Below, in pieces: positions 2,746-26,859 of a DNA stretch of 45,020 bases. Position 1 is the stretch's first letter; each line of letters begins with the position of its first letter. Source of the stretch: Candidatus Poseidoniales archaeon. Lineage in GTDB: Archaea > Thermoplasmatota > Poseidoniia > Poseidoniales > Poseidoniaceae. The translations under genes and the position numbers were made by a program. Location: the NCBI GenBank assembly GCA_003602485.1, contig QQSD01000035.1, forward strand, positions 1 to 45,020. Reading direction: 5' to 3'. Under the pieces are notes generated by a model. That model saw nothing but the letters and a program-made list of their open reading frames with translations. It had not been told where the DNA came from and searched no databases.

Positions 2746-5700
2746 TCATAGCAGGTCGTCGAGGAAAGAAGTATCAATTTGTGGCGACGGTGGCGTTTGC
2801 TGTTGGTCGTCCAATAATCCGTCCAAGAGTGCGGTGTTCACTTGAGGCTGCAATACAGGCTGCGTATTTTCGTAAGCGGGTCGTCCGTATTGGTCGGACT
2901 GGATTCGGTCAGCAGCAGCATAGATGTCATTGGCCTGTTGCGTGGTAATTCCGGGTGGTGGAGCAGGTGTACTTTGAGGAGGTGTTGCTGGCGGGGCTGT
3001 TGAAGAATCCCATCCATCATTTCCTTGGATACCCCAGGTGGCTTCTTGGAGCTCCCAGCTCTTGTTGCGTTGCGTAGCATTGCTTCGGGACCGCACGATG
3101 ATGACTAGTAGGAGTACGACGATGAGAAGCATTCCTGCAGCGATCAAATTCGGCCCAGTGAGCAAGGACTCAAGAGAAAGTTGACCGTTTTCATCAACCG
3201 GGTTGGTACCTGATGTTTCTTCACCAAAGGGCAATAGTTCCACGGATTCAACGGTGCTCTTGCTCACGCTTTCATCAAAGGGAACCACTGCGACATACCA
3301 TGCAGAATCATTGGTCAAGTCAGGGAAGAGATTTGAGGTAATGAGGAAGGAATTCGAAGCACGAACTTCACCTACCATGGTTGCATCATCGGTTGACGAG
3401 AAGGACTCATCAGCGATGTAGACGAGGTAGCCTCGGACGCTGGCGTCAGTGGAATGCGACCATTCTACGAAGATGATTTGTTCCTCAAACCATGAAGCTG
3501 TCACGTCTTCGATATCGGGAAGGTATCCGCCAAGGTCTGTCACACCATCATCTACGGACGATGCCTGAACACTGAGCAAATCCGTCATGTACGCATTGCC
3601 CGAGGTATCTTCGACAACAACGGCGACCCAGATGGACTGACCTGGGATGACGGGTGTGTCTCCAGCGACGATGTCGATGGTCAACGGAAGAGTCGGGTTA
3701 CGGCCCATGGTTGCAATTGGCATCTGTGGACCGTCTCCTTGCATGGTGACATCATCGAAATCATAGGTCGCAGCGTACACCTTGTAGGTAGCAACATCGT
3801 CAGATGCTGAGAGGTCAAAGTCCAGCAACAAGGCACTTCCGTCATCATTAGGCCGGTCTGTAAGGGAAAGAGCACCTAGCCTGTCTGGAGCGGTCGTATC
3901 ATCGATGTTGTTGATTGGTGTGACCGTTGCTTGTGTGAGATTGGTAAGGTGAACATTGCCTTTCAGGTCGTGGACGGTGACGGCCACGAAGAGCTCAATA
4001 TCTGGCTTGATTAACTGAGGAGTTGCTTGAGTCAAATCCATCATGTCTCCGCTACCTCCGTAGAGTGCGGTTGAGATGGTGAGTTCAATCGGGTTGGTTC
4101 GTTCATCAATCCACTGCTTGTTGAGGGTGAAACACCCGCAGACATCTTCGTTAATACCGAATGTAGCGTAGGCCACGGAGAGGTCATTCACAGGTTGGTC
4201 AGCAACCCATATTGTGTATGCTGCGAAATCATCAATGGTTGAAGGCTCCCAAACAACATCAATGGCTGTACCATCATCATTGGCATGGTCAAAGGCCAGC
4301 AGTGAAGTGATACGCTCAGGAGTTGAACCCTGTCCGAGAATGTTCTGGAAAGGAGTGGCGGTGACAAGTCGAACCGAGTCAGTATTTCCGTTCAGCCACA
4401 CGTCGTAAGCAACAACACCGAGGGTGTAGATCTGCCCGTCAATGAGCGGCACGCCATCCAAGGAGGTGATGGTCGCTTGGGTGTCATCACAGGAATTGAT
4501 CACAGCAGCTTGTGAAAACCCATCAACGCTTCCAATGGAATCTGGACCTTCTCCAGTGTTCTCGCCCATCTTCATGAAGACCGTATAGAATGCACAGTCG
4601 TCGGCTGAACTTTGATTCCAATATACTGAGACACGACCCCCTTCATCATCAGGTATGTCGGCTGCTCCGGTTCCTTCTACTGGATCTGGGGCTTCATTGT
4701 CGTTGAGTTCGCCGGTCGGTACAACAGGCCCTACAACGGTGACATTGGAGAGATTTTCTTGATTCGCTTCATCAACACATGTGAATCCAATCCAGACTGG
4801 AACGCCCGGGGTGAGGCTGAGGATACTTTGGTTGCCTTCGTTGGGTTGGAGGGCTGCTTGGGGAACCATGCCCAGAGCGTCAGTCATCACGGAGCGAGAC
4901 ACATAGATATTGGTCCTTGCAAGGTCGAGCGCTGTGCATCGAGCCCATTCCAATTCGAGGTCACCGTCGTCACCGTTGCTGCCCATTGGTGAAGCCGTCG
5001 CCCACAATGGAGCTCCAGGGATTTCATCTGAAGGTGAGGACGGGCCGAAAGGAGCAGAGACTTCACCCCAGCGACCGTCGTTGTATTCCACAACCACAAC
5101 AGCGTAGTATTGGCTGCCGTCAACCAATGGCAAGCCGTTAGCGGTTTCAATGTCGGCACCAAGTCGGCTGTGCATTGAAATGGTCTTGTCGGGTGTTTGT
5201 CCCATGAGGTTGAGTTCGTTTGGAACGATACTCCACGGGCCCTCGTTAACGAAGATCAGATAGCGAGCAAAGTCTTCATCGTGAACTAGCGACCATGTGG
5301 CAGTAAGGACGCCTCCTCCGTCATCGGGTCGGTCAACCAGATTCTCCATGGCTACAGGCGTATCAGTACGAACATAATCATAGGTCATACGAACTTCCAT
5401 TGTGCCGTTTGATGGCGAATAGAGGCGCAACGACACGTGACGAGTATTGTCGTACAGAAGTCCGTTGTCTACGGCGGACTGAAGGTTAAGTTCGAGATTC
5501 GGGTCTTGACTCAAATCCAAGGTGGCATCGTAGTTGAGTGATACTGATTTGGCCCAAATTGCCGCACCTTCAACGGGTGAGGTGAAGACGAGTGGGACAT
5601 TTTGGAACAGGAGGCCGTGTACGCCTGGGGCTCCTTGGTCGGAATCAAGAGCATAAGGCGCTGACGGGTTCACGAGTTCAATCGTCATGCCAGGGTGTGT

Positions 5701-8700
5701 CATATCGGTGATGTTGACTCCTCCACCATTGGTAAGCGCCCTTACAGTAAGCGGTGAGGCTGAACGCATGTATTCTCCTTCAATCGGCGAATACACTCCA
5801 CCTTTCTCAAAGCCCCAAAGCCCTGTCGTGGTGGTCATCCAAATGTGGTTGGACGTGATGACAGCGTCTGAGGTGATGCCTTGGTTGAGTACGGTGCCGT
5901 AGGTCAATCCGTGTGAGGGCGATGTTGCTTCGATGACGTTGAACATGGTGTTGTCAAAGGCCATGAGCGTGGTACCGTCGCTCACTAATGATGTCGGTAG
6001 GCCGTAGATGTTCCCGTAACTAAGTCCGTCTTCGAAATCCGCACTGCTTGCGTTCCAATGCGTCAATGGACCAGTGTCGGTGCCGATGTGAAGTCCCCAC
6101 CAATCACTGGCCAAGGAGATGACTCCGTTGGACGGCAGTTGGTCAAAGCGATGTGTTGCCGTGACAAGTTGCGAACTTGTGTCCATGGTTGTCACGCCGG
6201 GTCGTTCTGACCCCCGACCGTCATGGCTCATGACGAGCGTCACAGCGCCGTTGGTGCCAGTGGACGTTGCAAGTCCCCAAACAGAATTGCCCATGAGTCC
6301 GTCGGCCGTGGTGAATGTACTGCCTGTGTTGGTCGTTTCATCCCAGACATAGAGCCCTGCAGGCGTAGCGATGTAAATATCCGTTCCAACAGCCAGGACA
6401 TCTTCAACGACGTTACTGGGTAATCCGCTGGTGATTGGGTTCATCCAGTCAGAGAGTGTGTAATTGAACCGTCCAACTCCTCCATTGGTGGCGATGTACA
6501 TGATGTCGGAAGTGCCGGTAAATCCATTCACGATGCTCGAAGGAAGGCCGGCAATCAACCGTCCGTTTCCGAATTGTTGAGTGTTCAAATCAAAGACTTG
6601 GACACCTGGTGGGCTTCCTCCATCTCCAGAGAGCCCAATGACCAATTCATTGTTGTAAAGGTGCATGGTGTCAAATTTATTGTGGAGTGCGCCATTGATA
6701 GGACTCAGTGTCCGAGTGGTTGTGTCAAGTTTGATCATTCCGTTGGGGTTGGTGGCGATGAAAAGGTCTGTGCCGCTCAAGAAAAGGTCATTGACTTCTG
6801 AATTACCAGCAAGTGTCCACCCATATTGCCATTCAACTTCGCCGTTGGGCAAGAAAGCGCCTTGAAGTAAACCGGAACCTGTACCGGTGAATTGACCTTG
6901 GCCGGGTTGCCCTCCAACCGCTGCCCAAATGTGGGTTGCGTTGCTGAGGATGGTTGGCACCTGTCCGCTGACAAGTCCGGGGAGGTCGACGACTTTCTGT
7001 GTCCCGAGGGAGTTGAGGGTTGAGACGTGACTGTAGCCAGAGGAGCCACCTGCTTGCCCCATCATCCAGCCTAAGGTGCTGCCCAACCACTGGAAGGAGG
7101 TCACTGATGAACCACTGCCTTGAACGGTGGCTTGCGTTGTTGTAGCTCCGTTGGAAGACATGATAGAGAAGCCTCCGCCAATGAGGTTGTTTCCTTGCAA
7201 TCCAAGTCCGTGGCCTACGATGAGTTGTCCATTTGCATGAGCCAACGAGTCGTACCAAATACGGTCGCTTGGTAGGTTGTGGCTGGCAGTGGTCAAACTG
7301 CTGAGGAACGCATTGCTTTGGAAACTGTACTTCGAAATCGGCTGATCATCTGCATAATAGCCGATGTAGAGCGTATCCGATGCATCACATGTGACAGAAG
7401 CAGGAGAGGTACCGTCAAGTTGACTGCGGTCGAAGCCCGAGAGAACGGTGCCGTTCACAAGGTCAATTCTAGCAATGCCTCCGTTGTTGTTGTACATTGC
7501 AACGTTGAGGGCGCCACCACACATTTCCATAGAAATGGGGTACCCGTCTGCGATGTTGTTGTAGGAATCTGCAGGGTAGGCAGTCCAGCTACCAGTTGCG
7601 TCAAGATGGGAGATGATACCTTCTCTGAATCCGCCCCAGCCTTGGAAGGTGGCTCCACCGACAACCAAATTATTGCCGTCGGTCCAAAGTTCATAGAACT
7701 GGGAACCAGCATTGTTGGGCAGGCCGTTGCCGGCCTCCCATGTAGAAAGCCATTGATTGGTAGATTCATCGTAGCGAAGAATACCATCTTCGGCAGCGAA
7801 GAGGACTTGGCTGTCGTATTCAACGATGCCGCGAATTGGGAGTTCAAAATTATCCCATGAATTCACTCGAACGCCCGTTGAATTGTAGAGGTCCAGCCTC
7901 AATTCACCCCAAGCGACCCACGTATTGCCGGTACTGGACCTGTACGAAGTGACACGGTCAATCGAACCAGTTGGCAAGATATTGGTTGCATAGGAGTTGT
8001 TGGAAGTGTTGTACATGGCAATACCGCCGGATCCGTCAACCTGCCACCATTGTCCCGAGGCAACGCTGACCATGAGCACATCACCCGTCATTTCCATGCC
8101 GATGATGTCGCCACCGTTCTGGCCGACCTGTGCGCCGATGTCAAGATTACCAACGCTGGCCAAGTTGGCTACGTCCATACGACTTACTTCATCACTGGAA
8201 GTGCTGGAATGATAGTACATAATGTTGTTATGAATCATCATGCCGTAAGGGCTGCCTGCTGCATCGTAGAGATTGCTATTTCTTTCGATATCGTAGGCCT
8301 CTGCCCCGGTTGTGACGTTGATCAACTGGAATCCATCGGACCCTCCAACCCACAATAAATTCGGTCGTATGTCAGCAACCAAGCCGGTTACATCGTCGTT
8401 TCCACCGTCGAGTACACCGTTGTCTTCAGTGAATGAAACAAGCCATTGGTTTGAGGTGATATTGTAGCGCATGACGCCCAGACCGTCCGTGCCGATGTAG
8501 GCGATATCGCCCATGATTTCGACGACAGCATTTCCTGTTTGCGTCCCCTCACCCCAGTTGTAGTCGTGCTGGAAATTGGATTTTGTGACGAGGCCAACGC
8601 CGGAGGTCGTGCCTCCGTAGACGTATGTATTGTCAACTCCCACGCTGTAGGTGGCCCAATTCGGCATGCCGTCGTAGACATTCTGGCAATCGTTGATGGC

Positions 8701-11064
8701 CATGGTAGCGATGTTGTACTTACACAAACCGATGTTCGTGCCCGCATAGATGCTTCCGCTACTGCTGCTCCCCTCGATAGCGAAGTCGAAGAATTGTTGC
8801 GGGCGGGTCTGCCAAGACGATCCTTGTCCGAAACTCGTGATTTGGTTCCCGTCCCATTTCCGTGCCCCTTGTTGGGTCCCAATGTAGAGGTTGTTTCCGT
8901 CTGTGTCAAGGGCATAGATTTGATTTGAAGGCAGAACCCCTCCATTGTTGCTTGCGAGGAGCGGTGAGAGAAGTTCTCCGGTTGAGAGGTCCTTACGAAC
9001 CACGCCGAAGCCCTGAAGCCCGAGGTGAAGAATGTCGCCCACTACGGCCACTGGAGCAAAGTCGACTCCATTCACGCCCGTGGAGCCCCATGGTTCAAGC
9101 CATGTATCGTTGGTGATATCGTAGCGCAAGACACCTTTGTCTTCGCTGGCAACATACGCTTTGTCAGCGTGCAGGGCAACATCTCCGAGGAAGGAAGAGG
9201 GTATCCCGTTCGACGTGTCATAGCCAGTGCAGGACCCCGAGGTCCTGTTGAGTATTGCAACTCCCCCATTTTCCAACGAAGCAACGACAACATCGTCGTC
9301 AACATCCATACTTAGGAAGTCTGAGCCAGTTCCCCAACACCCTTGACTTGTCCATTCAAGAAGCGTCGTTCCAGTTGAATCCATCTGCGTGATGGTGCTG
9401 GCTGATGAGGCCACAAAGAGGTCGGTGCCGTCGGTAACGAGAGCCAACGCATCGTCACCAAATGGAAGCGGTTCAAGCCAGAGCGTGCTAGCAATGTCGT
9501 ATCGGTTGATACCCGTTCCGTCGAGGCTGGCGATGTAGAGGATGTTGTTGAGTTCAGTGATGGTCCCCATTTCATCGGTGCCCGGGCCACTTGCGAGGCG
9601 CAACGTTCCTTCAAAGAACGGATTATTGCCTGGAGTAAGATGAGCTAGAAGCCCACTTGCATCGCTGACTACCAAGGCGTCCTGTGCAGGGGAGGCACCT
9701 CCTACGGAAGGCCACATCATCATGGCAGCACCTGAGAGACTCAATCCGAAATCTTGGATTTCAAAGGCAGAGGTGAAGACGCCGTTACTCGTATTGTAAG
9801 GTTGAAGATAATCACCGTTCATGATGTAGAGTTGGTTTCCAACCCGCTCGATGCCGTGGATTTCATTATCGTCTAGCCAATTGGCCGAAGTCCATGTTGA
9901 GAGCCAAAACCCTTGAGCATAGTCAAAGCGGCCAACGCCGTTATCCTCCGACCCGAGCAGAAGTTGGTTGCCAGACTGAGTCATGTGAGTCACGCTATCT
10001 GAATGGAGGTTGTTGGCTGTGCTCCATGTGGAAAGTGCAGCGTTTGTCGCCAAATCGTATCGCATGATGCCAACCCCGTCGATTGAAACATACACTTGAT
10101 TGTTCAATTCTAAGATGGCGAGAGCATCACGTGGACCATCACTGGCAGGGGGCGTCATCATCGATGACCACTGAGAGCCATCGAACATCATGACATCACT
10201 GCCGGATGCGGCCGCCACCGTTCCATCGCTAAGCAATACAAAGACGTCCATTGTTTCACCAGGGTCGGGTAAACCCGTGGCTGAACTTCCGTCGTTGAGA
10301 GTCTGTGCGAGGAACGTCCCATCACTACTGAGCATGTGGATAAGTCCGTTTGATTCATCGATAACGAGGTCAACAATGCCCCCATATGCTTCCATATCCA
10401 ATACATCTACAGCGAGTGGCGAGCTTTGTGCGTTGAGTAGGAAGACATCATTGTTGGCAGCAAGATAGAGCATTCCGCTGTCGGGGTGAACGGCAGCAGC
10501 GTGGATGTCAAGGGTGAAGGGCGTAAGTGAGACCAAAGGGTCACGAGGAGCGAGTGCTTCGATAATCATCTCGGTAATTTCTGCATCGGATGGCAAATCC
10601 CAACCTGCGTTGGAGTTTGAGTTTGGGTTGAGGCGACCGTTGTATGTGGGGCCCGTGGTGAAGGCATCGGTTTGCCCGAGGACGCCTAACGTACTCCAGT
10701 CGAACAAATTGGTGCCCATGCCGTTTACGGCAAGAAGTGGTTCTTCGATGGTCATACCGTTCTGACCGCTGACTCTTACCTCAAGTGATACATTCGAAAG
10801 TTCAGCACCGGGTGCAAATGAGAGGTTCCAATCTGCCGTTGCTTGAGTCCCTATTGAACCGTCAGCGCCCGTTGTAGCGAGTGTGACCCATCCAGTATCG
10901 TTACTACCTTCCAAAGGCCAGGTGACTCCACTGGGTTCAGCATGGGCTGAAACCGAGTGCAGTGTGAGGATTGGGCTCATCGACATGAGCACCATGAGGA
11001 GGACCATTCCGAGGGCTCTCGGCTCGTGACGAGCAAGGCGAGGCGTGTGGCCGAGTGTGTTCAT
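2746..11064 (-). CDS. Giant membrane-anchored surface protein with propeller repeats and Fn3-like domains
   Basis: The frame opens at 11271, but the ATG at 11064 is preferred. It begins a clean signal peptide (hydrophobic core MVLLMVLM, cleavage near VSAHA), gives 2,772 residues and has a TATA-like box 26 nt upstream. Residues of about 100-1900 are dozens of 40-50-residue beta repeats of the form GxxRYD-x(5)-W-x(10)-G-(N/D)-xLYI, like two-component-regulator propeller blades. About 1950-2600 holds five Fn3-like repeats, most opening with an acidic DxPxDDGG motif and carrying DDxAxYxVY. A single TM helix (LIAAGMLLIVVLLLVIIV) follows, then a cytoplasmic tail of about 140 residues, rich in Pro and Gln and ending in two LLDxLLDD/SFLDDLL motifs. 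The protein should be displayed outside the cell. Adhesion or polymer/substrate binding is plausible, but no catalytic motif was recognised. The stop lies 9 bp before the pabC-like ATG. Confidence 0.9.
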   Translation of the reverse strand: MNTLGHTPRLARHEPRALGMVLLMVLMSMSPILTLHSVSAHAEPSGVTWPLEGSNDTGWVTLATTGADGSIGTQATADWNLSFAPGAELSNVSLEVRVSGQNGMTIEEPLLAVNGMGTNLFDWSTLGVLGQTDAFTTGPTYNGRLNPNSNSNAGWDLPSDAEITEMIIEALAPRDPLVSLTPFTLDIHAAAVHPDSGMLYLAANNDVFLLNAQSSPLAVDVLDMEAYGGIVDLVIDESNGLIHMLSSDGTFLAQTLNDGSSATGLPDPGETMDVFVLLSDGTVAAASGSDVMMFDGSQWSSMMTPPASDGPRDALAILELNNQVYVSIDGVGIMRYDLATNAALSTWSTANNLHSDSVTHMTQSGNQLLLGSEDNGVGRFDYAQGFWLSTWTSANWLDDNEIHGIERVGNQLYIMNGDYLQPYNTSNGVFTSAFEIQDFGLSLSGAAMMMWPSVGGASPAQDALVVSDASGLLAHLTPGNNPFFEGTLRLASGPGTDEMGTITELNNILYIASLDGTGINRYDIASTLWLEPLPFGDDALALVTDGTDLFVASSASTITQMDSTGTTLLEWTSQGCWGTGSDFLSMDVDDDVVVASLENGGVAILNRTSGSCTGYDTSNGIPSSFLGDVALHADKAYVASEDKGVLRYDITNDTWLEPWGSTGVNGVDFAPVAVVGDILHLGLQGFGVVRKDLSTGELLSPLLASNNGGVLPSNQIYALDTDGNNLYIGTQQGARKWDGNQITSFGQGSSWQTRPQQFFDFAIEGSSSSGSIYAGTNIGLCKYNIATMAINDCQNVYDGMPNWATYSVGVDNTYVYGGTTSGVGLVTKSNFQHDYNWGEGTQTGNAVVEIMGDIAYIGTDGLGVMRYNITSNQWLVSFTEDNGVLDGGNDDVTGLVADIRPNLLWVGGSDGFQLINVTTGAEAYDIERNSNLYDAAGSPYGMMIHNNIMYYHSSTSSDEVSRMDVANLASVGNLDIGAQVGQNGGDIIGMEMTGDVLMVSVASGQWWQVDGSGGIAMYNTSNNSYATNILPTGSIDRVTSYRSSTGNTWVAWGELRLDLYNSTGVRVNSWDNFELPIRGIVEYDSQVLFAAEDGILRYDESTNQWLSTWEAGNGLPNNAGSQFYELWTDGNNLVVGGATFQGWGGFREGIISHLDATGSWTAYPADSYNNIADGYPISMEMCGGALNVAMYNNNGGIARIDLVNGTVLSGFDRSQLDGTSPASVTCDASDTLYIGYYADDQPISKYSFQSNAFLSSLTTASHNLPSDRIWYDSLAHANGQLIVGHGLGLQGNNLIGGGFSIMSSNGATTTQATVQGSGSSVTSFQWLGSTLGWMMGQAGGSSGYSHVSTLNSLGTQKVVDLPGLVSGQVPTILSNATHIWAAVGGQPGQGQFTGTGSGLLQGAFLPNGEVEWQYGWTLAGNSEVNDLFLSGTDLFIATNPNGMIKLDTTTRTLSPINGALHNKFDTMHLYNNELVIGLSGDGGSPPGVQVFDLNTQQFGNGRLIAGLPSSIVNGFTGTSDIMYIATNGGVGRFNYTLSDWMNPITSGLPSNVVEDVLAVGTDIYIATPAGLYVWDETTNTGSTFTTADGLMGNSVWGLATSTGTNGAVTLVMSHDGRGSERPGVTTMDTSSQLVTATHRFDQLPSNGVISLASDWWGLHIGTDTGPLTHWNASSADFEDGLSYGNIYGLPTSLVSDGTTLMAFDNTMFNVIEATSPSHGLTYGTVLNQGITSDAVITSNHIWMTTTTGLWGFEKGGVYSPIEGEYMRSASPLTVRALTNGGGVNITDMTHPGMTIELVNPSAPYALDSDQGAPGVHGLLFQNVPLVFTSPVEGAAIWAKSVSLNYDATLDLSQDPNLELNLQSAVDNGLLYDNTRHVSLRLYSPSNGTMEVRMTYDYVRTDTPVAMENLVDRPDDGGGVLTATWSLVHDEDFARYLIFVNEGPWSIVPNELNLMGQTPDKTISMHSRLGADIETANGLPLVDGSQYYAVVVVEYNDGRWGEVSAPFGPSSPSDEIPGAPLWATASPMGSNGDDGDLELEWARCTALDLARTNIYVSRSVMTDALGMVPQAALQPNEGNQSILSLTPGVPVWIGFTCVDEANQENLSNVTVVGPVVPTGELNDNEAPDPVEGTGAADIPDDEGGRVSVYWNQSSADDCAFYTVFMKMGENTGEGPDSIGSVDGFSQAAVINSCDDTQATITSLDGVPLIDGQIYTLGVVAYDVWLNGNTDSVRLVTATPFQNILGQGSTPERITSLLAFDHANDDGTAIDVVWEPSTIDDFAAYTIWVADQPVNDLSVAYATFGINEDVCGCFTLNKQWIDERTNPIELTISTALYGGSGDMMDLTQATPQLIKPDIELFVAVTVHDLKGNVHLTNLTQATVTPINNIDDTTAPDRLGALSLTDRPNDDGSALLLDFDLSASDDVATYKVYAATYDFDDVTMQGDGPQMPIATMGRNPTLPLTIDIVAGDTPVIPGQSIWVAVVVEDTSGNAYMTDLLSVQASSVDDGVTDLGGYLPDIEDVTASWFEEQIIFVEWSHSTDASVRGYLVYIADESFSSTDDATMVGEVRASNSFLITSNLFPDLTNDSAWYVAVVPFDESVSKSTVESVELLPFGEETSGTNPVDENGQLSLESLLTGPNLIAAGMLLIVVLLLVIIVRSRSNATQRNKSWELQEATWGIQGNDGWDSSTAPPATPPQSTPAPPPGITTQQANDIYAAADRIQSDQYGRPAYENTQPVLQPQVNTALLDGLLDDQQQTPPSPQIDTSFLDDLL

Positions 11065-11086
11065 GAGTGGAACCGGACTTTCACCG

Positions 11087-11095
11087 TATTTGAAA
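11087..11095 (-). promoter_or_regulatory. TATA-like box for the giant surface protein gene
   Basis: The minus strand reads TTTCAAATAC here, centred about 27 nt before the ATG at 11064. Archaeal TATA boxes sit about 26 nt upstream of transcription starts, so the message would be leaderless or nearly so. The same 10-mer occurs at nearly the same distance before the RND transporter gene at 22597. The call rests on motif and spacing only. Confidence 0.45.
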
Positions 11096-11269
11096 GCGGC
11101 CCCTTCGTGACTAAACAAAATGCGACTCAATGATGCAAAAAAACCGAACTTTTCGCCATTTTTTCCTTGCCAACGGGCATGAGGAAAAGGGTATGAGATT
11201 GGGGTCTTGCAGGAAATCCTTCGCACAACACTCAAACGATAGGCCCGTACCGACTGAAAAGGGATTCTC

Positions 11270-13588
11270 ATGGAACGAGAAAAGCGAGAGCGTCTTTTGC
11301 GTAAAGAAGCACTGGAATATCACGAGGCGGAACCCCGTGGTAAAATCAAGGTGGTTCCTACAAAACCCCACGCAACCGCTCATGAATTGAGTCTCGCGTA
11401 TTCTCCGGGTGTAGCCTATCCCTGTTTGGAGATTGAAGAGCGCCCCGAAGACGCATACCGCTACACTTCCAAAGGCAACCTTGTCGCAGTTATTTCGAAC
11501 GGAACCGCCGTTCTCGGATTAGGAAATATCGGTGCTTTGGCCAGCAAACCGGTGATGGAAGGGAAAGGGTTGCTGCTCAAGACCTTCGCAGGAATCGATG
11601 TCTTTGATATTGAGGTGGATACCGAAGACCCTGAAGAATTCATCAACACCGTCGTGAACATTTCCAAAACATTTGGTGGCATCAACCTTGAAGATATCAA
11701 AGCCCCTGAATGCTTCGAGATTGAACGCAGGATTGCCGAGGCTACAGATATCCCGGTTATGCATGACGATCAGCACGGAACTGCGATTATTTCTGCAGCT
11801 GCACTCATCAACGCTGTGGAACTCCAAGAGAAGGAACTCAGTGAAGTCCGAGTCGTCGTGATTGGTGCAGGTGCATCCGCTATTGCATGCGCTAACCATT
11901 ACGTCGCCGTTGGGGTGTCGATGAGCAACATAACCCTCGTCGACAGTGGGGGGATTGTCACAACGAAACGACTTGAAGAAGGTGAATTGAACGAATACAA
12001 AGCCCCCTTCGCCCAAGACCGAGAACCAGGAGACCTCGCTGACGCAATGAAAGATGCTGATGTAATGTTGGGGCTTTCACGTGGCGGCTTGGTCTCCACC
12101 GACATGGTTGCGAGTATGGCCGACAAACCGATTATCTTTGCACTTGCAAACCCGACGCCAGAAATTCTCCCCGAGGAGGTCCTCAGTGTTCGTACTGATG
12201 CCATTATCGCGACGGGTCGTTCAGACTACTCCAACCAGGTCAACAACGTGCTCGGATTCCCCTATATTTTCCGCGGAGCTCTTGACGTTCGCGCACGTGA
12301 TATCACACAGAACATGAAAATGGCAGCGACGCGAGCGCTCGCTGCGCTTGCCAAGGAACCCGTTCCCGATTATATCTCGGCTGCTTACGATGGCGTAGTC
12401 ATGCAGTACGGGCCAGAATACATCATTCCCAAACCGTTCGACCAACGGGTTTTGATTTGGGAGGCAGCCGCCGTTGCACAAGCCGCTATCGATGAAGGAA
12501 TTGCGGGTGTTTCAGCGGACGAATTTGATATTGTTGCCTATCGTGAAGAACTTGAATCACGCTTGGGAGAATCCTATTCAGTCATGCGCCAAGTTATCAA
12601 TCAAGTCAAGGGCAAAGGAAAGCGCATTGTCTTCCCTGAAGGCGACAATGAAACAGTTTTGAGGGCTGCTGCGCAACTCGCTGAGCAACGAATCTGTTTC
12701 CCAATTCTCTTGGGCCCCATTGACCGTATTGACAGAATGGTTGAGGAAATCGGCCTTCATTTCGAATACGAACGTTACGATCCGCGCTATGATGAGCGCA
12801 GAAAGACCGTCTATGCTGAAGCCTTTTTCCAGCGCCGTAAACGCAAGGGTACGACCTTACCCGACGCAGCTCGCCTGCTAAAGAGTCGTCCTTATTTCGC
12901 ATCCCAGATGGTGCAAGCAGGGGATGCTGATGGTTTCGTAGGGGGCGTGAGTAGAAATTATGCGGATGTCCTCAGACCGACTCTTGAATTAATCGGCAAA
13001 GACGAAGGCAGTCACTGTGTCATTGGTTGCTACATGATGAATATCAAAGGCCGAACCATCTTCCTCGCTGACGCAACAGTCAACGTTTACCCTGACAGCC
13101 GAACGCTTGCTGAGATTGCCGTTCAAACTGCTAAAGTCGCACGGCGATTTGGAGTGATTCCTCGAGTTGCCATGCTCTCCTTCTCTAATTTCGGCTCCAC
13201 ACGAGCCCAACGTAGCGACCGCATCGAAGATGCAGTGGAGATTGCTAAGACTCTCGACCCCTCGTTGATGATCGACGGTCCGATGCAAAGCGACACGGCT
13301 CTGAACCCTACCGTTCAACAGGAGTACCCGTTCATGGATCTCATTGGCCCTGCAAATGTTCTGATTTTACCCAACCTTGCTGCAGCAAACATCGCCTACA
13401 AATTACTGGAGGAATTAGGCGATGCAGAAATGACGGGGCCCATTCTCGAAGGCATGGCCCATCCCGTTCAATTGGTTGCCCGACAGGACGGTGTACGTCA
13501 CATTGTCAACATGGCTACCATCTGTACAGCGGATGCTTTGCGCAGTGATTCTTATTGGGAATCACTGGGTGAATCCTCAAAGAATTGA
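11270..13588 (+). CDS. maeB: NADP-dependent malic enzyme with C-terminal phosphotransacetylase-like domain
   Basis: This 772-residue protein matches the MaeB architecture in length (E. coli about 760) and domain order. It should decarboxylate malate to pyruvate, making NAD(P)H. The malic-enzyme half shows SPGVA (45-49), a catalytic lysine region near 98-104, metal ligands in GGINLEDIKAPECFEIE (ED at 141-142), HDDQHGTA (165-172) and a Rossmann loop IGAGASA (198-204). From about residue 445 a phosphate acetyl/butyryltransferase-like domain runs to the end. In characterised MaeB proteins this domain is regulatory (acetyl-CoA sensing) rather than catalytic, and I infer the same here. The start has a GGGATTCTC spacer. 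The gene diverges from the giant surface protein and its 3' end overlaps the convergent SUMF1-like gene by 37 bp. It looks bacterial and was probably acquired by an archaeal ancestor. Confidence 0.93.
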   Translation: MEREKRERLLRKEALEYHEAEPRGKIKVVPTKPHATAHELSLAYSPGVAYPCLEIEERPEDAYRYTSKGNLVAVISNGTAVLGLGNIGALASKPVMEGKGLLLKTFAGIDVFDIEVDTEDPEEFINTVVNISKTFGGINLEDIKAPECFEIERRIAEATDIPVMHDDQHGTAIISAAALINAVELQEKELSEVRVVVIGAGASAIACANHYVAVGVSMSNITLVDSGGIVTTKRLEEGELNEYKAPFAQDREPGDLADAMKDADVMLGLSRGGLVSTDMVASMADKPIIFALANPTPEILPEEVLSVRTDAIIATGRSDYSNQVNNVLGFPYIFRGALDVRARDITQNMKMAATRALAALAKEPVPDYISAAYDGVVMQYGPEYIIPKPFDQRVLIWEAAAVAQAAIDEGIAGVSADEFDIVAYREELESRLGESYSVMRQVINQVKGKGKRIVFPEGDNETVLRAAAQLAEQRICFPILLGPIDRIDRMVEEIGLHFEYERYDPRYDERRKTVYAEAFFQRRKRKGTTLPDAARLLKSRPYFASQMVQAGDADGFVGGVSRNYADVLRPTLELIGKDEGSHCVIGCYMMNIKGRTIFLADATVNVYPDSRTLAEIAVQTAKVARRFGVIPRVAMLSFSNFGSTRAQRSDRIEDAVEIAKTLDPSLMIDGPMQSDTALNPTVQQEYPFMDLIGPANVLILPNLAAANIAYKLLEELGDAEMTGPILEGMAHPVQLVARQDGVRHIVNMATICTADALRSDSYWESLGESSKN

Positions 13589-18898: not shown

Positions 18899-18924
18899 AG
18901 CGGAGAAAAGCGTCCCGAACGTTG

Positions 18925-19941
18925 ATGACTCGCAAGCACAGCGGTCAAACCATGACGATTCAGGCCTTGAGGGCAGAAGAGGTCCCTCATTACACGAGAA
19001 TCGTCGCCGACTCGGACCTTGACGGTCTGTGTGGTGCGGCGGTGTTGAAGGCCTTTCGTCCCGATGCCGAGGTGATGTTCTCGCATGCTGCTGCCATTCG
19101 TTCAGGTCTTGTTGACGACATCATCGACGCTGAAACCGTCATGATCGACCTTCCATTTCATCCCGCCTGCGGATGGTATGTTGACCATCACCTCACCAAT
19201 CGACCAAGTGAAGAAGAAGCCCTGCTTTTCGACAAAGGTGGTGGCACACGTCATTGGAAGCATACACCGTCAGCCGCTCGTCTTGCCTATGAGTTACTCG
19301 CAGAGGTAACCGACATGCAACATCTCGAACCCATGATGCCGCTGGTTGATGCTCTTGATTCAGGTGGTATCAGCAAAGATGTCTTTGTTGAAGACGGACC
19401 TGTGCTTCAGTTCGCACGGACCTGCACGCCGCGTGAACAGGAGTACATGCAACAGGTCGTTTCCCACCTTGCTGGAGGTGCTACACTCCATGACCTTCTC
19501 GACCACCCGTTGGTCCTCCCTCATCTCGAACGCGTGCGCGCAGAACGTGAAACCGCCCAAGCTCATGTAGCACAACGAACGGAAATCGTGGACCGCTTGG
19601 CCATATGCCGACTCGATGAAACGCCTCTGCGTATCAACGGCTACTTGGTCACTGCATGGGCGGGTGATGAAGTGGACGCTTGCTGCATTGTTCATGGCTA
19701 CAGCGACGGGTCGATTGAAACGCCCGAACGGCCCGCATTAGGAGCGAGTTTCTACGCTAATTCCTTCCTTCCAGAGGGGCAAGGGCGCTACGACCTCTCG
19801 CGTTTGGCTACCGCATTGGACCCGACTGGAGGAGGTCACGCGAACGCATGCGGCTGTCGTATTCAGCCTCCAGGATTGGATGCCAATCTCAACCATTGGT
19901 TGGAGATGTGGGCGTCCAGAGAGACAATCCTTCGGATTTAG
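18925..19941 (+). CDS. DHH/DHHA1 family phosphoesterase
   Basis: About 338 residues from the ATG at 18925 (TTG at 18922 and ATG at 18952 are alternatives). The N-terminal DHH domain shows RIVADSDLDGLCGAAVL with the metal-binding DxD, then DLPFHP and WYVDHH, the DHH motif. The C-terminal DHHA1 domain ends in GGGHANACGCRI, the substrate-phosphate loop of RecJ/NrnA relatives. The archaeal family includes GAN/RecJ-like nucleases and small-oligonucleotide phosphatases; the size favours an oligoribonuclease or cyclic-dinucleotide phosphodiesterase type over full RecJ. Two metal ions at the DHH site are expected. Upstream is the divergent Nudix gene; the stop lies three bases from the convergent coiled-coil gene. 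Confidence 0.88.
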   Translation: MTRKHSGQTMTIQALRAEEVPHYTRIVADSDLDGLCGAAVLKAFRPDAEVMFSHAAAIRSGLVDDIIDAETVMIDLPFHPACGWYVDHHLTNRPSEEEALLFDKGGGTRHWKHTPSAARLAYELLAEVTDMQHLEPMMPLVDALDSGGISKDVFVEDGPVLQFARTCTPREQEYMQQVVSHLAGGATLHDLLDHPLVLPHLERVRAERETAQAHVAQRTEIVDRLAICRLDETPLRINGYLVTAWAGDEVDACCIVHGYSDGSIETPERPALGASFYANSFLPEGQGRYDLSRLATALDPTGGGHANACGCRIQPPGLDANLNHWLEMWASRETILRI

Positions 19942-22739: not shown

Positions 22740-23210
22740 TCAGATGAGGACATCGAAGGTGTAGATGAAGCCGAGGAAGGCGTGGATGAACACGAGGTAG
22801 ATGATGACATCTGCGGCTCGCCCGTGCTTGAGTTTACTCACAGCGAAGGATTCGCCAGCCTCTCGTTGAGCTTTTGCTTGCTTACCGTAACGTGTAAGGA
22901 CGACCATGAGTGCAAATCCTACAGGTCCCATAAAGCCGTGAAGGGATTGGGGCAGAAGTGCCGACCACGGGTCGCCTTCAGTGTACCATCCGTTCACGGC
23001 ACGCCCAGCAAATGCAACCAGAATCACACCGCCAGCAGCCCACAACAGGCGCTCACCGTTCTTCTCATGCATGGTGCGATGATGCTCGCGTTCTTCGCCC
23101 TTCAATTCGTAGGATTTCTTTCGCCATGCATACTGCCACCACACCCAAATCACGAGTCCACTGGCCAAAATGGGGTGGAGGAGAAGAGCGACAGTGGGGA
23201 TGAGTTCCAT
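22740..23210 (-). CDS. Four-helix membrane protein, DUF4079/cytochrome b561-like
   Basis: 156 residues with four hydrophobic helices at about 5-25, 55-75, 88-107 and 130-152. Histidines sit in positions suited to heme or quinone chemistry: LHP in helix 1, LHG at the start of helix 3, and an HGRAADVIIYLVFIHAF in helix 4. The layout resembles DUF4079 and b561-type four-helix bundles, but the resemblance is weak and heme binding is only an inference. A basic cytoplasmic loop (WRKKSYELKGEEREHHR) follows helix 1. The gene is on the same strand as the RND transporter, 142 bp upstream of it, and diverges from the PIN-domain gene. Confidence 0.55.
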   Translation of the reverse strand: MELIPTVALLLHPILASGLVIWVWWQYAWRKKSYELKGEEREHHRTMHEKNGERLLWAAGGVILVAFAGRAVNGWYTEGDPWSALLPQSLHGFMGPVGFALMVVLTRYGKQAKAQREAGESFAVSKLKHGRAADVIIYLVFIHAFLGFIYTFDVLI

Positions 23211-23356
23211 GGTTGCACCCGTCTCGGCTGAGGGTGCCTTGGTTCAAGGAAGTATGTGTTTGCAACCTCCTACCGTTCATCTATCTCCATCGGTGCATTG
23301 AAAGCACGCCGAATCGGGCGTGGAGATGAGGGGACGAATCGTTGGATGAGGCATAC

Positions 23357-26300
23357 ATGGAAACCTGCTTGAAGGCAGCGTTTTCAAGACCCATGACAAA
23401 GAATGTCAGGGTAGCCACCATGAACCGGGAAGCAGCATGGAAAATGCTTGACAAACCGCTACGCTCTGTACTCGTTTACGCCGCACATGAGGAAGAACCG
23501 CCTGCAGCAGACGAGGACGAGGACACCCCTACGCCACGCCGCTCAAACATGAACCGTCCACGAGGCCGAATGCGCCGCGGTGGCCGAGGAGCCGGGCAGT
23601 CGCACACAAGTTGGCTCCCTTCACCGCAAGCCGTCATCGACGAAACCCCCTATTCCACAGCCTTCCAACTTGCAACTCTCCTGATCCACAAGCAAATGGA
23701 CGCTGACGAGTGGGACGAGGCTTGGAACGAGAACGAGACGGCTCTGCGTGAAACCTGTATGAGCGAAGGCGTACATCCCGTCTGGCATCTCGTTGGGGAG
23801 AAGACGGTGCTGCTTTCACAATTTCTTGCCTTTCCCAAGGCAAAGGCAAAGCAACAAAGCAAGAAGAAAGCCATGGGGACCTCCTTTTTCAACATCGACC
23901 CACGCGACCGCAATGAATTGTTGACCGTGCTCAAACTCGCCAGTGCTGGGGCTGAAAACCCTGAAACAAAAGTCGCCTTGCAAAAGGTCACCAACCAAGT
24001 GAGCGGTCACCGAAAAGTCGTCCTGGGCGAGCATCTCATGGGCGTGAAAGATTCACTCGCCTTTGTCACCTTCCTGGTGATGATTCATGCCGGTCAACCG
24101 GTCACGAAAGCCATCTCTAACGCCTGTAAGAAGGCGGATGAAACACTGCATAGCGCACTGGAAGACCTTGCGAATCTCATGTCGGGCAAGGTCAATGATT
24201 GGGCTGGAACACTGGCAGCTGAGGGAGACGACTCTCTTACCAAAGCGCGCCACTTACTGGCTTGGGAACATGCCCCCAATGATGCAGAATCACTCACTTC
24301 CAGCGAACTTGAAGCGGGCATAACTCTGCTTTCCGAGGCTGGCGTGAGTGAAGCGATTGACCGCCTCACATGGTGGCGCCTCAAGGCACTTCATCGTGAG
24401 AAGAACGACCAAGAAGCGTTGGATGTATTGGAAGGCCTTCGTTTGGACGCCCATTCCGACGTTGTCGAATTGCTTCCCCTCATCATTTCCTTGGATGACC
24501 AACGTGCTAACGATTGGTTGCTCTCGTTCCTGCCAGATCTCGACGAGCAAGCATGGTTTCACATCATCAGTGAAGTCAAGCTCGTTGACCCGATCCGTCT
24601 TGCTGCTGCGAAGGCATTGACCGACCTGCAAGGGCACACATGGGCTGACATCAAATCCACGGCCATTCATCTGTTGATGGAAGGCTTGGACATTGAACGC
24701 TTGGCTCGCGTCATTTCCACGGATTCAATGTTGCCGCTTTCGCACCCCTACGTGGTACTCTTCGTTTGTCACATCGCCCCAGCTCGCCTCCCCTACGAAC
24801 TTCGAGAACACTTGGGTAGCTCTCGTGAGCAAGCACTTCAAGCCATTCATGGAGCGGAAGTACCTGCAGTATTGACGCCCATTGCCGAGCACCTTTTGCT
24901 CTTGATGGAAGGCATCTACAAGGATACGCCGGAATTGGCCGCAGTCTTCAACACGACCGCAATGAAGGCCTTCTCACCAATCAGTCGTGCGCTCACCAGC
25001 GATGGCGTTGTAAGTCACACGCACATCAAAAACATGGGCAATAGTTTGGACGAATTGGACATCTCACCCATCGAACGCCGTCTCTTTGACGCCATGTTGC
25101 TTTCCTTGACGATGAATGGGTATCTTCAACGCTATCACATTGGTATGGCACAATCTGAGGATGCAGAAGCAATCAACGCCATGATGGACGACCAGCATCT
25201 CCCTATGCGCCTGATGGATTCCTTCGCCTTCCTCGTGGTGGAACATGATCTTGGCCTCTCAGGCGTTGTTGAATGGTATCAACAACATGACCCCCGTTCC
25301 CCTTGGGCCCCACTCGCACGTGCTGCTCTCTTCGCATCGAACGGGGATGAACTCAACTCAGCAAGAGAATATACCCGAGCAGCCGAGTTGTTCAGTGCCC
25401 AGCGCCACAACACAAAGCAAAGCGACCAATCCGGCGAAAGCGACGATGACGATACGGCCATCGCTCTGCCTTTGGCTCTCTATCGAAAAGCACTCATTCA
25501 CTATGCACACGCTCAACAATACTCAGAAGCGGTGTCGCTCATGCAGAAAGTTCCTGCACTGAAGACAGCCATCACCGAGCGCTTCAAGCTCTATCTCAAC
25601 GTGTGTCATACGGCCTCCAAGGATACCGATGCTGCAACACGACTTGTCCGCTCCCATGTTCAAATGCGAAAAACCTACACTGAGGAAGATGTTGAAGGGA
25701 ATTTGATTGAAAAGTCACGCACGGTCTACAACGAAGAAGAATTGGATTTGTTGAGGAATTACCCCTATGAAAAATCCCACATCTTGCCACCCGAGCCGTT
25801 CCTCGGGCGCGTTACAGCCGCCTCTACACGCATCAGCAGAGACCTTCGTCGTTCGAGAAGCCAAATTGAACAGCAGTTCAGGCAAATCATGCAGAGTTCG
25901 TCACCAACCATGAATGAAATCTATGAACTCGCTAAAGGGGCTGCGGAAGAAGGCGCATTTGAGGGTCTCATGTACCTTGAGCGGGCCCAAAACTCGTCCA
26001 AGTTTTCCGCTTCGGACCGTCGCAGACTTGCCGGTGTCGAACAATCGCTTTTCTCTCAATACAAAGACAATATTACAACCTCTAAGCGCCGCTTCCTTCG
26101 AAATCTTTCGCTCGCTCCGCTGGTCATCATCGACACCAATATTCTCGTCGATGCCTTGGTTGAACGTGTTTACCAACACATGAAACTGGTCTTTGAAACC
26201 AATCTCAATATCCTTGGCTCCAACCGGTTCCACCATATTCTCCTCCATCATGCAACCGAAAAGCGGCTTTTCCTCATGATTCCAGACGACGTCCGAGGCG

Positions 26301-26791
26301 AATTGAAGCAATTTGCGAAAGACAACCGCTTGATGCATCGATTCCAAGGCGCCATGGTTGACGCTGATACACTCAAGAAGACATTGAGCGAAGACGTGAT
26401 GCTGTCGTTGGTCGATGAGGTCCTCGACCAGTACAGCACTTGGACGCCTACTTCTGAAATGCTCTCCGAACTTCCCTCCTCCTCCGAGCAACTCGATGCC
26501 TTCCTCAAGCATCATGCTGATGTGTTCGCAGATCTCACCTCGTTGAAGCAAATGCGAGGTATCACCTACCGAACCACCCTGGACAACAAGGAAATCTATC
26601 CCGAAGAGACTGACTTGGACATTTACCGACTCGCAATGCATTTGGCTTCGCAACCACTTCCCGACATTGGGTCTGTGCTCGTGGCGACGATGGACGGTGA
26701 TTTCACACTGCTCGACCGAGCCATCGAAGAAAAATTCGGGTTCAGTGTTACCAAGAATCATCGCACGCTCAAGCCTTGGCTCAAGCACTGA
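23357..26791 (+). CDS. Large helical-repeat protein with RG-rich segment and C-terminal PIN-like nuclease domain
   Basis: About 1,144 residues from the ATG at 23357, which GATGAGG precedes at 5-nt spacing; a TTG at 23342 and later ATGs are alternatives. Residues of about 35-80 are disordered: an acidic run (ADEDEDTP), then an Arg/Gly-rich segment (RPRGRMRRGGRGAG) typical of RNA binding. About 90-880 is nearly all helical, with TPR/HEAT-like pairs and no clear named family. The C-terminal 230 residues look like a PIN domain: VIIDTNILVDAL near 925 (first acidic residue), a mid-domain DLDIYRLAMHLA, and VATMDGDFTLLDRAI near 1112 (last acidic residues), spaced as in PIN metal sites. I infer a structure-guided RNase, perhaps in rRNA or mRNA processing. 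No antitoxin is next to it, so a simple VapC role is unlikely. Confidence 0.75.
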   Translation: METCLKAAFSRPMTKNVRVATMNREAAWKMLDKPLRSVLVYAAHEEEPPAADEDEDTPTPRRSNMNRPRGRMRRGGRGAGQSHTSWLPSPQAVIDETPYSTAFQLATLLIHKQMDADEWDEAWNENETALRETCMSEGVHPVWHLVGEKTVLLSQFLAFPKAKAKQQSKKKAMGTSFFNIDPRDRNELLTVLKLASAGAENPETKVALQKVTNQVSGHRKVVLGEHLMGVKDSLAFVTFLVMIHAGQPVTKAISNACKKADETLHSALEDLANLMSGKVNDWAGTLAAEGDDSLTKARHLLAWEHAPNDAESLTSSELEAGITLLSEAGVSEAIDRLTWWRLKALHREKNDQEALDVLEGLRLDAHSDVVELLPLIISLDDQRANDWLLSFLPDLDEQAWFHIISEVKLVDPIRLAAAKALTDLQGHTWADIKSTAIHLLMEGLDIERLARVISTDSMLPLSHPYVVLFVCHIAPARLPYELREHLGSSREQALQAIHGAEVPAVLTPIAEHLLLLMEGIYKDTPELAAVFNTTAMKAFSPISRALTSDGVVSHTHIKNMGNSLDELDISPIERRLFDAMLLSLTMNGYLQRYHIGMAQSEDAEAINAMMDDQHLPMRLMDSFAFLVVEHDLGLSGVVEWYQQHDPRSPWAPLARAALFASNGDELNSAREYTRAAELFSAQRHNTKQSDQSGESDDDDTAIALPLALYRKALIHYAHAQQYSEAVSLMQKVPALKTAITERFKLYLNVCHTASKDTDAATRLVRSHVQMRKTYTEEDVEGNLIEKSRTVYNEEELDLLRNYPYEKSHILPPEPFLGRVTAASTRISRDLRRSRSQIEQQFRQIMQSSSPTMNEIYELAKGAAEEGAFEGLMYLERAQNSSKFSASDRRRLAGVEQSLFSQYKDNITTSKRRFLRNLSLAPLVIIDTNILVDALVERVYQHMKLVFETNLNILGSNRFHHILLHHATEKRLFLMIPDDVRGELKQFAKDNRLMHRFQGAMVDADTLKKTLSEDVMLSLVDEVLDQYSTWTPTSEMLSELPSSSEQLDAFLKHHADVFADLTSLKQMRGITYRTTLDNKEIYPEETDLDIYRLAMHLASQPLPDIGSVLVATMDGDFTLLDRAIEEKFGFSVTKNHRTLKPWLKH

Positions 26792-26859
26792 AGCAGATAT
26801 TGCACGCTCGAGCACTGAAGCAGATATTGCATGCTCAAGCATTGCAGCAGATTAACACT
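26779..26859. repeat. Three tandem copies of a 27-bp repeat across a stop codon
   Basis: Units at 26779-26805, 26806-26832 and 26833-26859 begin GCTC(A/G)AGCA(C/T)TG and continue (A/C)AGCAGATATTGCA. Units 1 and 2 differ at two positions; unit 3 is more diverged. The period is nine codons in the PIN gene's frame, so the TGA stop in unit 1 is repeated in unit 2, while unit 3 has TGC there. The array fills the gap up to the convergent icd stop at 26860. Confidence 0.9.

Follow-up and report, generated by a model that had tools for sequence, protein, structure and literature searches.

The window analyzed here is a stretch of 45,020 nucleotides from a Candidatus Poseidoniales archaeon (contig QQSD01000035.1), and on its plus strand lies a gene that encodes a protein of 1149 residues in a single uninterrupted frame (Table 1). 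The first-pass annotation, made from the DNA sequence, had this frame begin at an ATG at 23357; the frame is indeed open from end to end, but the gene probably starts five codons further upstream, at a TTG at 23342. We favor the TTG because an ATG occupies that codon in three relatives (L030, L031, and L041, whose proteins begin MQE) and because an N-terminal motif common to the relatives in the family alignment, xxExYxxxCL, is counted from this position. A tandem repeat (2.7 copies of a 27-base unit with 89% matches, window 26779–26852) crosses the stop codon into the intergenic region that follows.

Table 1 Features of the large gene and of the protein that it encodes (coordinates are those of the window).
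Feature	Coordinates	Strand	Basis
Whole gene	23342..26791	+	TTG start, 1149 aa plus stop; open reading frame read end to end
N-terminal helical segment, residues 1-56	23342..23509	+	AF2 helices 2-48; conserved xxExYxxxCL motif
Disordered linker, residues 57-85: acidic run, then Arg/Gly-rich basic patch	23510..23596	+	pLDDT < 50; R78/R79 nearly invariant; composition
All-helical TPR-like solenoid, residues about 88-916	23603..26089	+	AF2 secondary structure; weak TPR matches in relatives; solenoid structural matches
PIN domain, residues 925-1149	26114..26788	+	model m53635ac892c0; PIN structures top structural list; weak PIN, PIN_12, and NYN profile matches in relatives
PIN motif 1, D931-T932-N933	26132..26140	+	invariant 39/39
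PIN motif 2, E987	26300..26302	+	invariant
Helical insert between motifs 2 and 3, about residues 1000-1080	26339..26581	+	helices in domain model
PIN motif 3, D1091 (YPExxD)	26612..26614	+	invariant
PIN motif 4, D1118-x-D1120-F1121	26693..26704	+	invariant

The gene stands by itself. Upstream, and divergent from it, is a gene for a 156-aa membrane protein with a weak match to cytochrome b561 (22740–23210), 131 bases away; downstream, and convergent with it, is an isocitrate dehydrogenase-like gene across a gap of 68 bases. No operon partner that might point to a pathway is present at the locus, and no known RNA elements were found within or around the gene. Neither gap has space for an antitoxin gene, and there is no small adjoining gene on the same strand of the kind that marks VapBC modules. 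A toxin–antitoxin module is therefore ruled out, in agreement with the original reading that the protein has no antitoxin partner. Elsewhere in the window are a gene for a DHH-like phosphoesterase, recognized by sequence motif and without a Pfam match (18922–19941, plus strand), which stays near the large gene through most of Poseidoniales; an open reading frame of 2841 aa that matches nothing in Pfam at E 0.01 (2746–11271, minus strand); and a malic enzyme fused with a phosphate acetyltransferase domain, an ordinary fusion (11270–13588, plus strand).

The protein is predicted to consist of a short helical segment, a disordered linker, a long helical array, and a C-terminal globular domain. 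The full-length model, built with 39 sequences, has a pLDDT of 83.4 and a pTM of 0.64, and drops below a pLDDT of 50 across linker residues 57–85. In most relatives the linker is acidic first and rich in arginine and glycine thereafter, as had been described for this protein, but the label RGG-like proved too specific: the exact RGG varies, most members of the same genus have RRSGR or RRTGR instead, and it is R78 and R79 that are nearly invariant over Poseidoniales in an alignment of 39 sequences. As judged from the alignment, the conserved element of the linker is a short RR-x-GR patch and not a multi-RGG box.

Beyond the linker, helices run almost unbroken from about residue 88 to about residue 916 of the full-length model, matching the array of about 800 residues that had been proposed. 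Relatives give weak matches to TPR profiles (TPR_19 at 1e-4 in one, TPR_14 in four). Structural comparison of this part by VIA-align, in which candidate structures from Foldseek are re-aligned, returned generic helical repeats only (Ctr9, subunits of the APC/C, and chains of the Ski complex), with Z scores of up to 9.7, where matches between helical repeats carry weight only from a Z of about 13. Because these matches lie at the helical-repeat background level we label the solenoid TPR-like and go no further. A specific kinship to the repeats of Ski3, Ctr9, or the APC/C was considered and set aside, since the similarity does not rise above that background. The 14-3-3-like fold of SMG proteins is absent among the solenoid matches listed, and a missing match there is no evidence either way. 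Foldseek with the full-length model gave no match below E 0.001.

The C-terminal domain is where the comparison becomes specific. When residues 881–1149 were modeled alone the pLDDT was 85.8 and the pTM 0.84, and the leading 42 VIA-align rows for this domain were nearly all PIN structures, after which the list dropped to unrelated folds at a Z of 4.8. The best match was the toxin VapC (3zvk; Z 10.9, 133 of 133 residues aligned, rmsd 2.9), and others included a Chp1–Tas3 chain (3tix, Z 8.5), SMG6/EST1A (2dok, Z 8.2), Rrp44 of the exosome (4ifd, Z 8.1), the protein-only RNase P HARP (7og5, Z 7.9), and pre-ribosomal PIN proteins; for rows named by their complex alone (e.g. 3tix, 8wmm, and 8cbj) we take the matched chains to be PIN domains. 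With the isolated domain as query, Foldseek itself returned no significant match in the PDB (none below E 0.001); the cause may be a helical insert of about 80 residues that interrupts the domain. This insert is less conserved than the entire PIN domain (0.42 vs 0.51).

All 39 relatives, with identities as low as 24%, share five acidic residues (D931, E987, D1091, D1118, and D1120), which fall in the order expected for PIN motifs 1–4. The first and last of these motifs had been noticed at the outset as a DTN near residue 925 and a D-x-D near residue 1112, which in the numbering of the 1149-residue protein are D931-T932-N933 and D1118/D1120. In a profile–profile alignment with VapC-like PIN proteins of the phylum, motif 1 was paired (P 2e-4), as was the region of motif 4 (P 8.7e-4); D1091 was not cleanly paired with the third aspartate of those proteins. 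The spacing from D1091 to D1118/D1120 looks to us NYN-like. Together the domain model and the conserved residues make a firm case that the C-terminal domain has a PIN fold (alpha/beta/alpha) with conserved acidic residues in four motifs, and the last 250 residues, which might have turned out to be unlike PIN, compare with PIN structures.

Sequence libraries do not recognize the protein at their cut-offs. Searched alone against Pfam, NCBIfam, and PDB sequences, the window protein matched no family, whether nuclease or non-nuclease, at cut-off, and profiles of its family gave only chance matches to PDB sequences. Single relatives match PIN_12 (best 1.4e-4, with one relative spanning the entire profile), PIN (1.1e-3), and NYN (0.011), and PIN_12 and NYN are among the strongest such matches; neither the window protein nor any relative with a printed score reaches the curated cut-offs of PF01850, PF16289 (PIN_12), or PF01936 (NYN). 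A search for literature pairing Poseidoniales or Marine Group II with the PIN domain found nothing relevant. The family is thus undescribed in the profile libraries searched, as had been suspected, though its catalytic fold is recognizable.

The closest public relatives are labeled Poseidonia, a genus that belongs to Poseidoniales, the marine archaeal order known as Marine Group II (PMC6461757). The gene is present as one copy in its own genome, in 29 of 30 genomes of the same genus, and in 240 of 293 genomes of the order, which represent 20 of the 22 Poseidoniales genera sampled. A family profile found no match in 211 Thermoplasmatota genomes outside Poseidoniales, six of which belong to a different family in the same class, and the PIN domain used alone as a query found no PIN-only homologues elsewhere in the phylum; beyond Thermoplasmatota, a genome collection was scanned with one sequence, a search that reaches close relatives only. 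The synteny of the flanking genes is kept in both Poseidoniales families, and the gene tree separates the two families from each other, root placement apart. Whole-gene dN/dS lies between 0.04 and 0.13, and in four of five pairs the value for the PIN domain is below that for the helical part. Given this breadth within genus and order and this degree of constraint, the locus is more than a chance open reading frame, and the sequence comparisons identify it as a gene for a conserved, vertically inherited, working protein under strong purifying selection. No relatives were found in phage, plasmid, and viral collections, and a mobile or viral origin was dropped on that ground.

Genera g9 and g14 have no copy that the family profile can find. 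In these genera the isocitrate dehydrogenase and DHH-like genes are still close together, and the stretch between them holds no trace of the large gene; in five gene-less loci (L113, L114, L115, L117, and L118) a TPMT-like methyltransferase gene lies between the two. The most fitting interpretation of the absence is that these lineages lost a gene ancestral to the order. Such a loss means that not every member of the order depends on the gene's role, and it argues for a function that is useful but replaceable. VapC-type PIN proteins (PF01850) are themselves nearly absent in Poseidoniales (one of nine genomes), whereas in many other Thermoplasmatota there are several, with counts that reach beyond 20.

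Among known proteins, the layout most resembles that of SMG6 (EST1A) and SMG5 of eukaryotic nonsense-mediated decay, in which a TPR-like helical domain and a helix precede a C-terminal PIN domain. The order of catalytic residues (D/E/D/D) is the same in the archaeal domain and in SMG6, where they are D1251, E1282, D1353, and D1392 (PMC12923823). No sequence relation to SMG5/6 was found, however, and the archaeal protein carries a different insert. VapC toxins provide the closest structural match to the catalytic domain, but the archaeal domain is part of a 1149-aa core-gene protein, with its insert between motifs 2 and 3. HARP and PRORP likewise join a PIN-like metallonuclease to helical additions (a second structure, 7e8o, aligns at Z 6.0), although the archaeal protein is far larger than HARP and coexists with RNase P RNA. 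Rrp44 and Ski3 recall the PIN domain and the solenoid, respectively; unlike them, the archaeal protein is one polypeptide and has no RNB exonuclease.

We consider it likely that the gene encodes a single-copy chromosomal PIN endoribonuclease, ancestral to Poseidoniales and metal-dependent, whose target is chosen by the solenoid and the basic patch. The PIN domain would hold Mg2+ or Mn2+ through D931, E987, D1091, and D1118/D1120 and cleave RNA that is single-stranded or exposed. Cutting would be left to this domain; the solenoid and the disordered basic patch would bring the enzyme to a particular RNA, ribosome, or protein partner, such that cleavage would be directed by the scaffold and not by any sequence preference of the PIN domain. 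The role would be a housekeeping one in RNA turnover or quality control, though a dispensable one. We infer the nuclease activity, the RNA substrate, and this role from the PIN superfamily at large and from SMG6, which has a parallel layout; targeting by the scaffold is likewise a prediction. Some DNA nucleases and some inactive scaffold proteins also have PIN-like folds. A narrower version, which we regard as possible though on the unlikely side, is that the protein is an order-specific archaeal analogue of SMG6 that uses the solenoid and the basic patch to dock on ribosomes or messenger RNPs, makes internal cuts that initiate mRNA decay or quality control, and evolved independently of eukaryotic nonsense-mediated decay.

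Other roles for a PIN protein of this size have to be weighed against this one. The enzyme might replace or assist in the maturation of stable RNAs, at tRNA 5′ ends or in rRNA, and the HARP matches are pertinent here, since such work is within reach of PIN-fold proteins with helical parts, as HARP and PRORP demonstrate. RNase P RNA was nevertheless found in eight of nine Poseidoniales genomes searched, carriers and non-carriers of the gene alike (the one miss being the window's own genome, which is 80% complete), and Nob1-type PIN_6 and Fcf1-type PIN_9 domains occur in 10 of 10 genomes searched. Because all three coexist with the gene, its replacing any of them is unlikely, and we dropped both the idea of a protein-only RNase P substitute and that of a Nob1 or Fcf1 replacement. 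The enzyme may carry out an additional rRNA or tRNA step; as a whole, a role in stable-RNA maturation is doubtful. More doubtful again is a catalytically idle PIN domain that acts as a scaffold for binding RNA or protein, as happens in Chp1, whose complex is among the structural matches, or in SMG5, one of the known cases of idle PIN domains inside large proteins (PMC12923823). Throughout the order, none of the acidic motif residues varies, a constancy that an idle domain would not need.

We give similarly low credence to a phage-defense or abortive-infection effector, in which the solenoid would sense infection and the PIN domain would cut host or phage RNA. There are precedents in PIN toxins and CARF-PIN effectors, one relative matches a CARF_PIN model (0.0055), and the gene is dispensable in two genera; but unlike mobile defense genes it is core, single-copy, syntenic, and strongly constrained in the order, it has no relatives in the plasmid, phage, and viral collections, its adjoining genes include none recognized as defense, and PADLOC gave no match to the PIN domain of the window protein. 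Flap nucleases belong to the PIN-like folds, so that a DNA nuclease of the wider PIN/FEN superfamily is conceivable. The matched structures are, however, mostly RNA-cutting PIN domains, and the adjoining genes are not repair genes (RadA is about 4 kb off and is not an operon partner), making this the least probable reading.

The protein is a new architecture on a known catalytic fold, with a biological role that is predicted only. Few archaea are more abundant in the surface ocean than Poseidoniales, which, to our knowledge, have no cultured representatives. Here a core gene of the order goes unrecognized at cut-off by the profile libraries tested and yet carries a recognizable catalytic fold. 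If active, the protein would serve as a dedicated endonuclease in a lineage that has almost no VapC-type PIN proteins, and it would be an instance of a eukaryotic mRNA-decay layout, a helical scaffold joined to a PIN domain, arising in archaea. The two genera that lack the gene provide a natural comparison.
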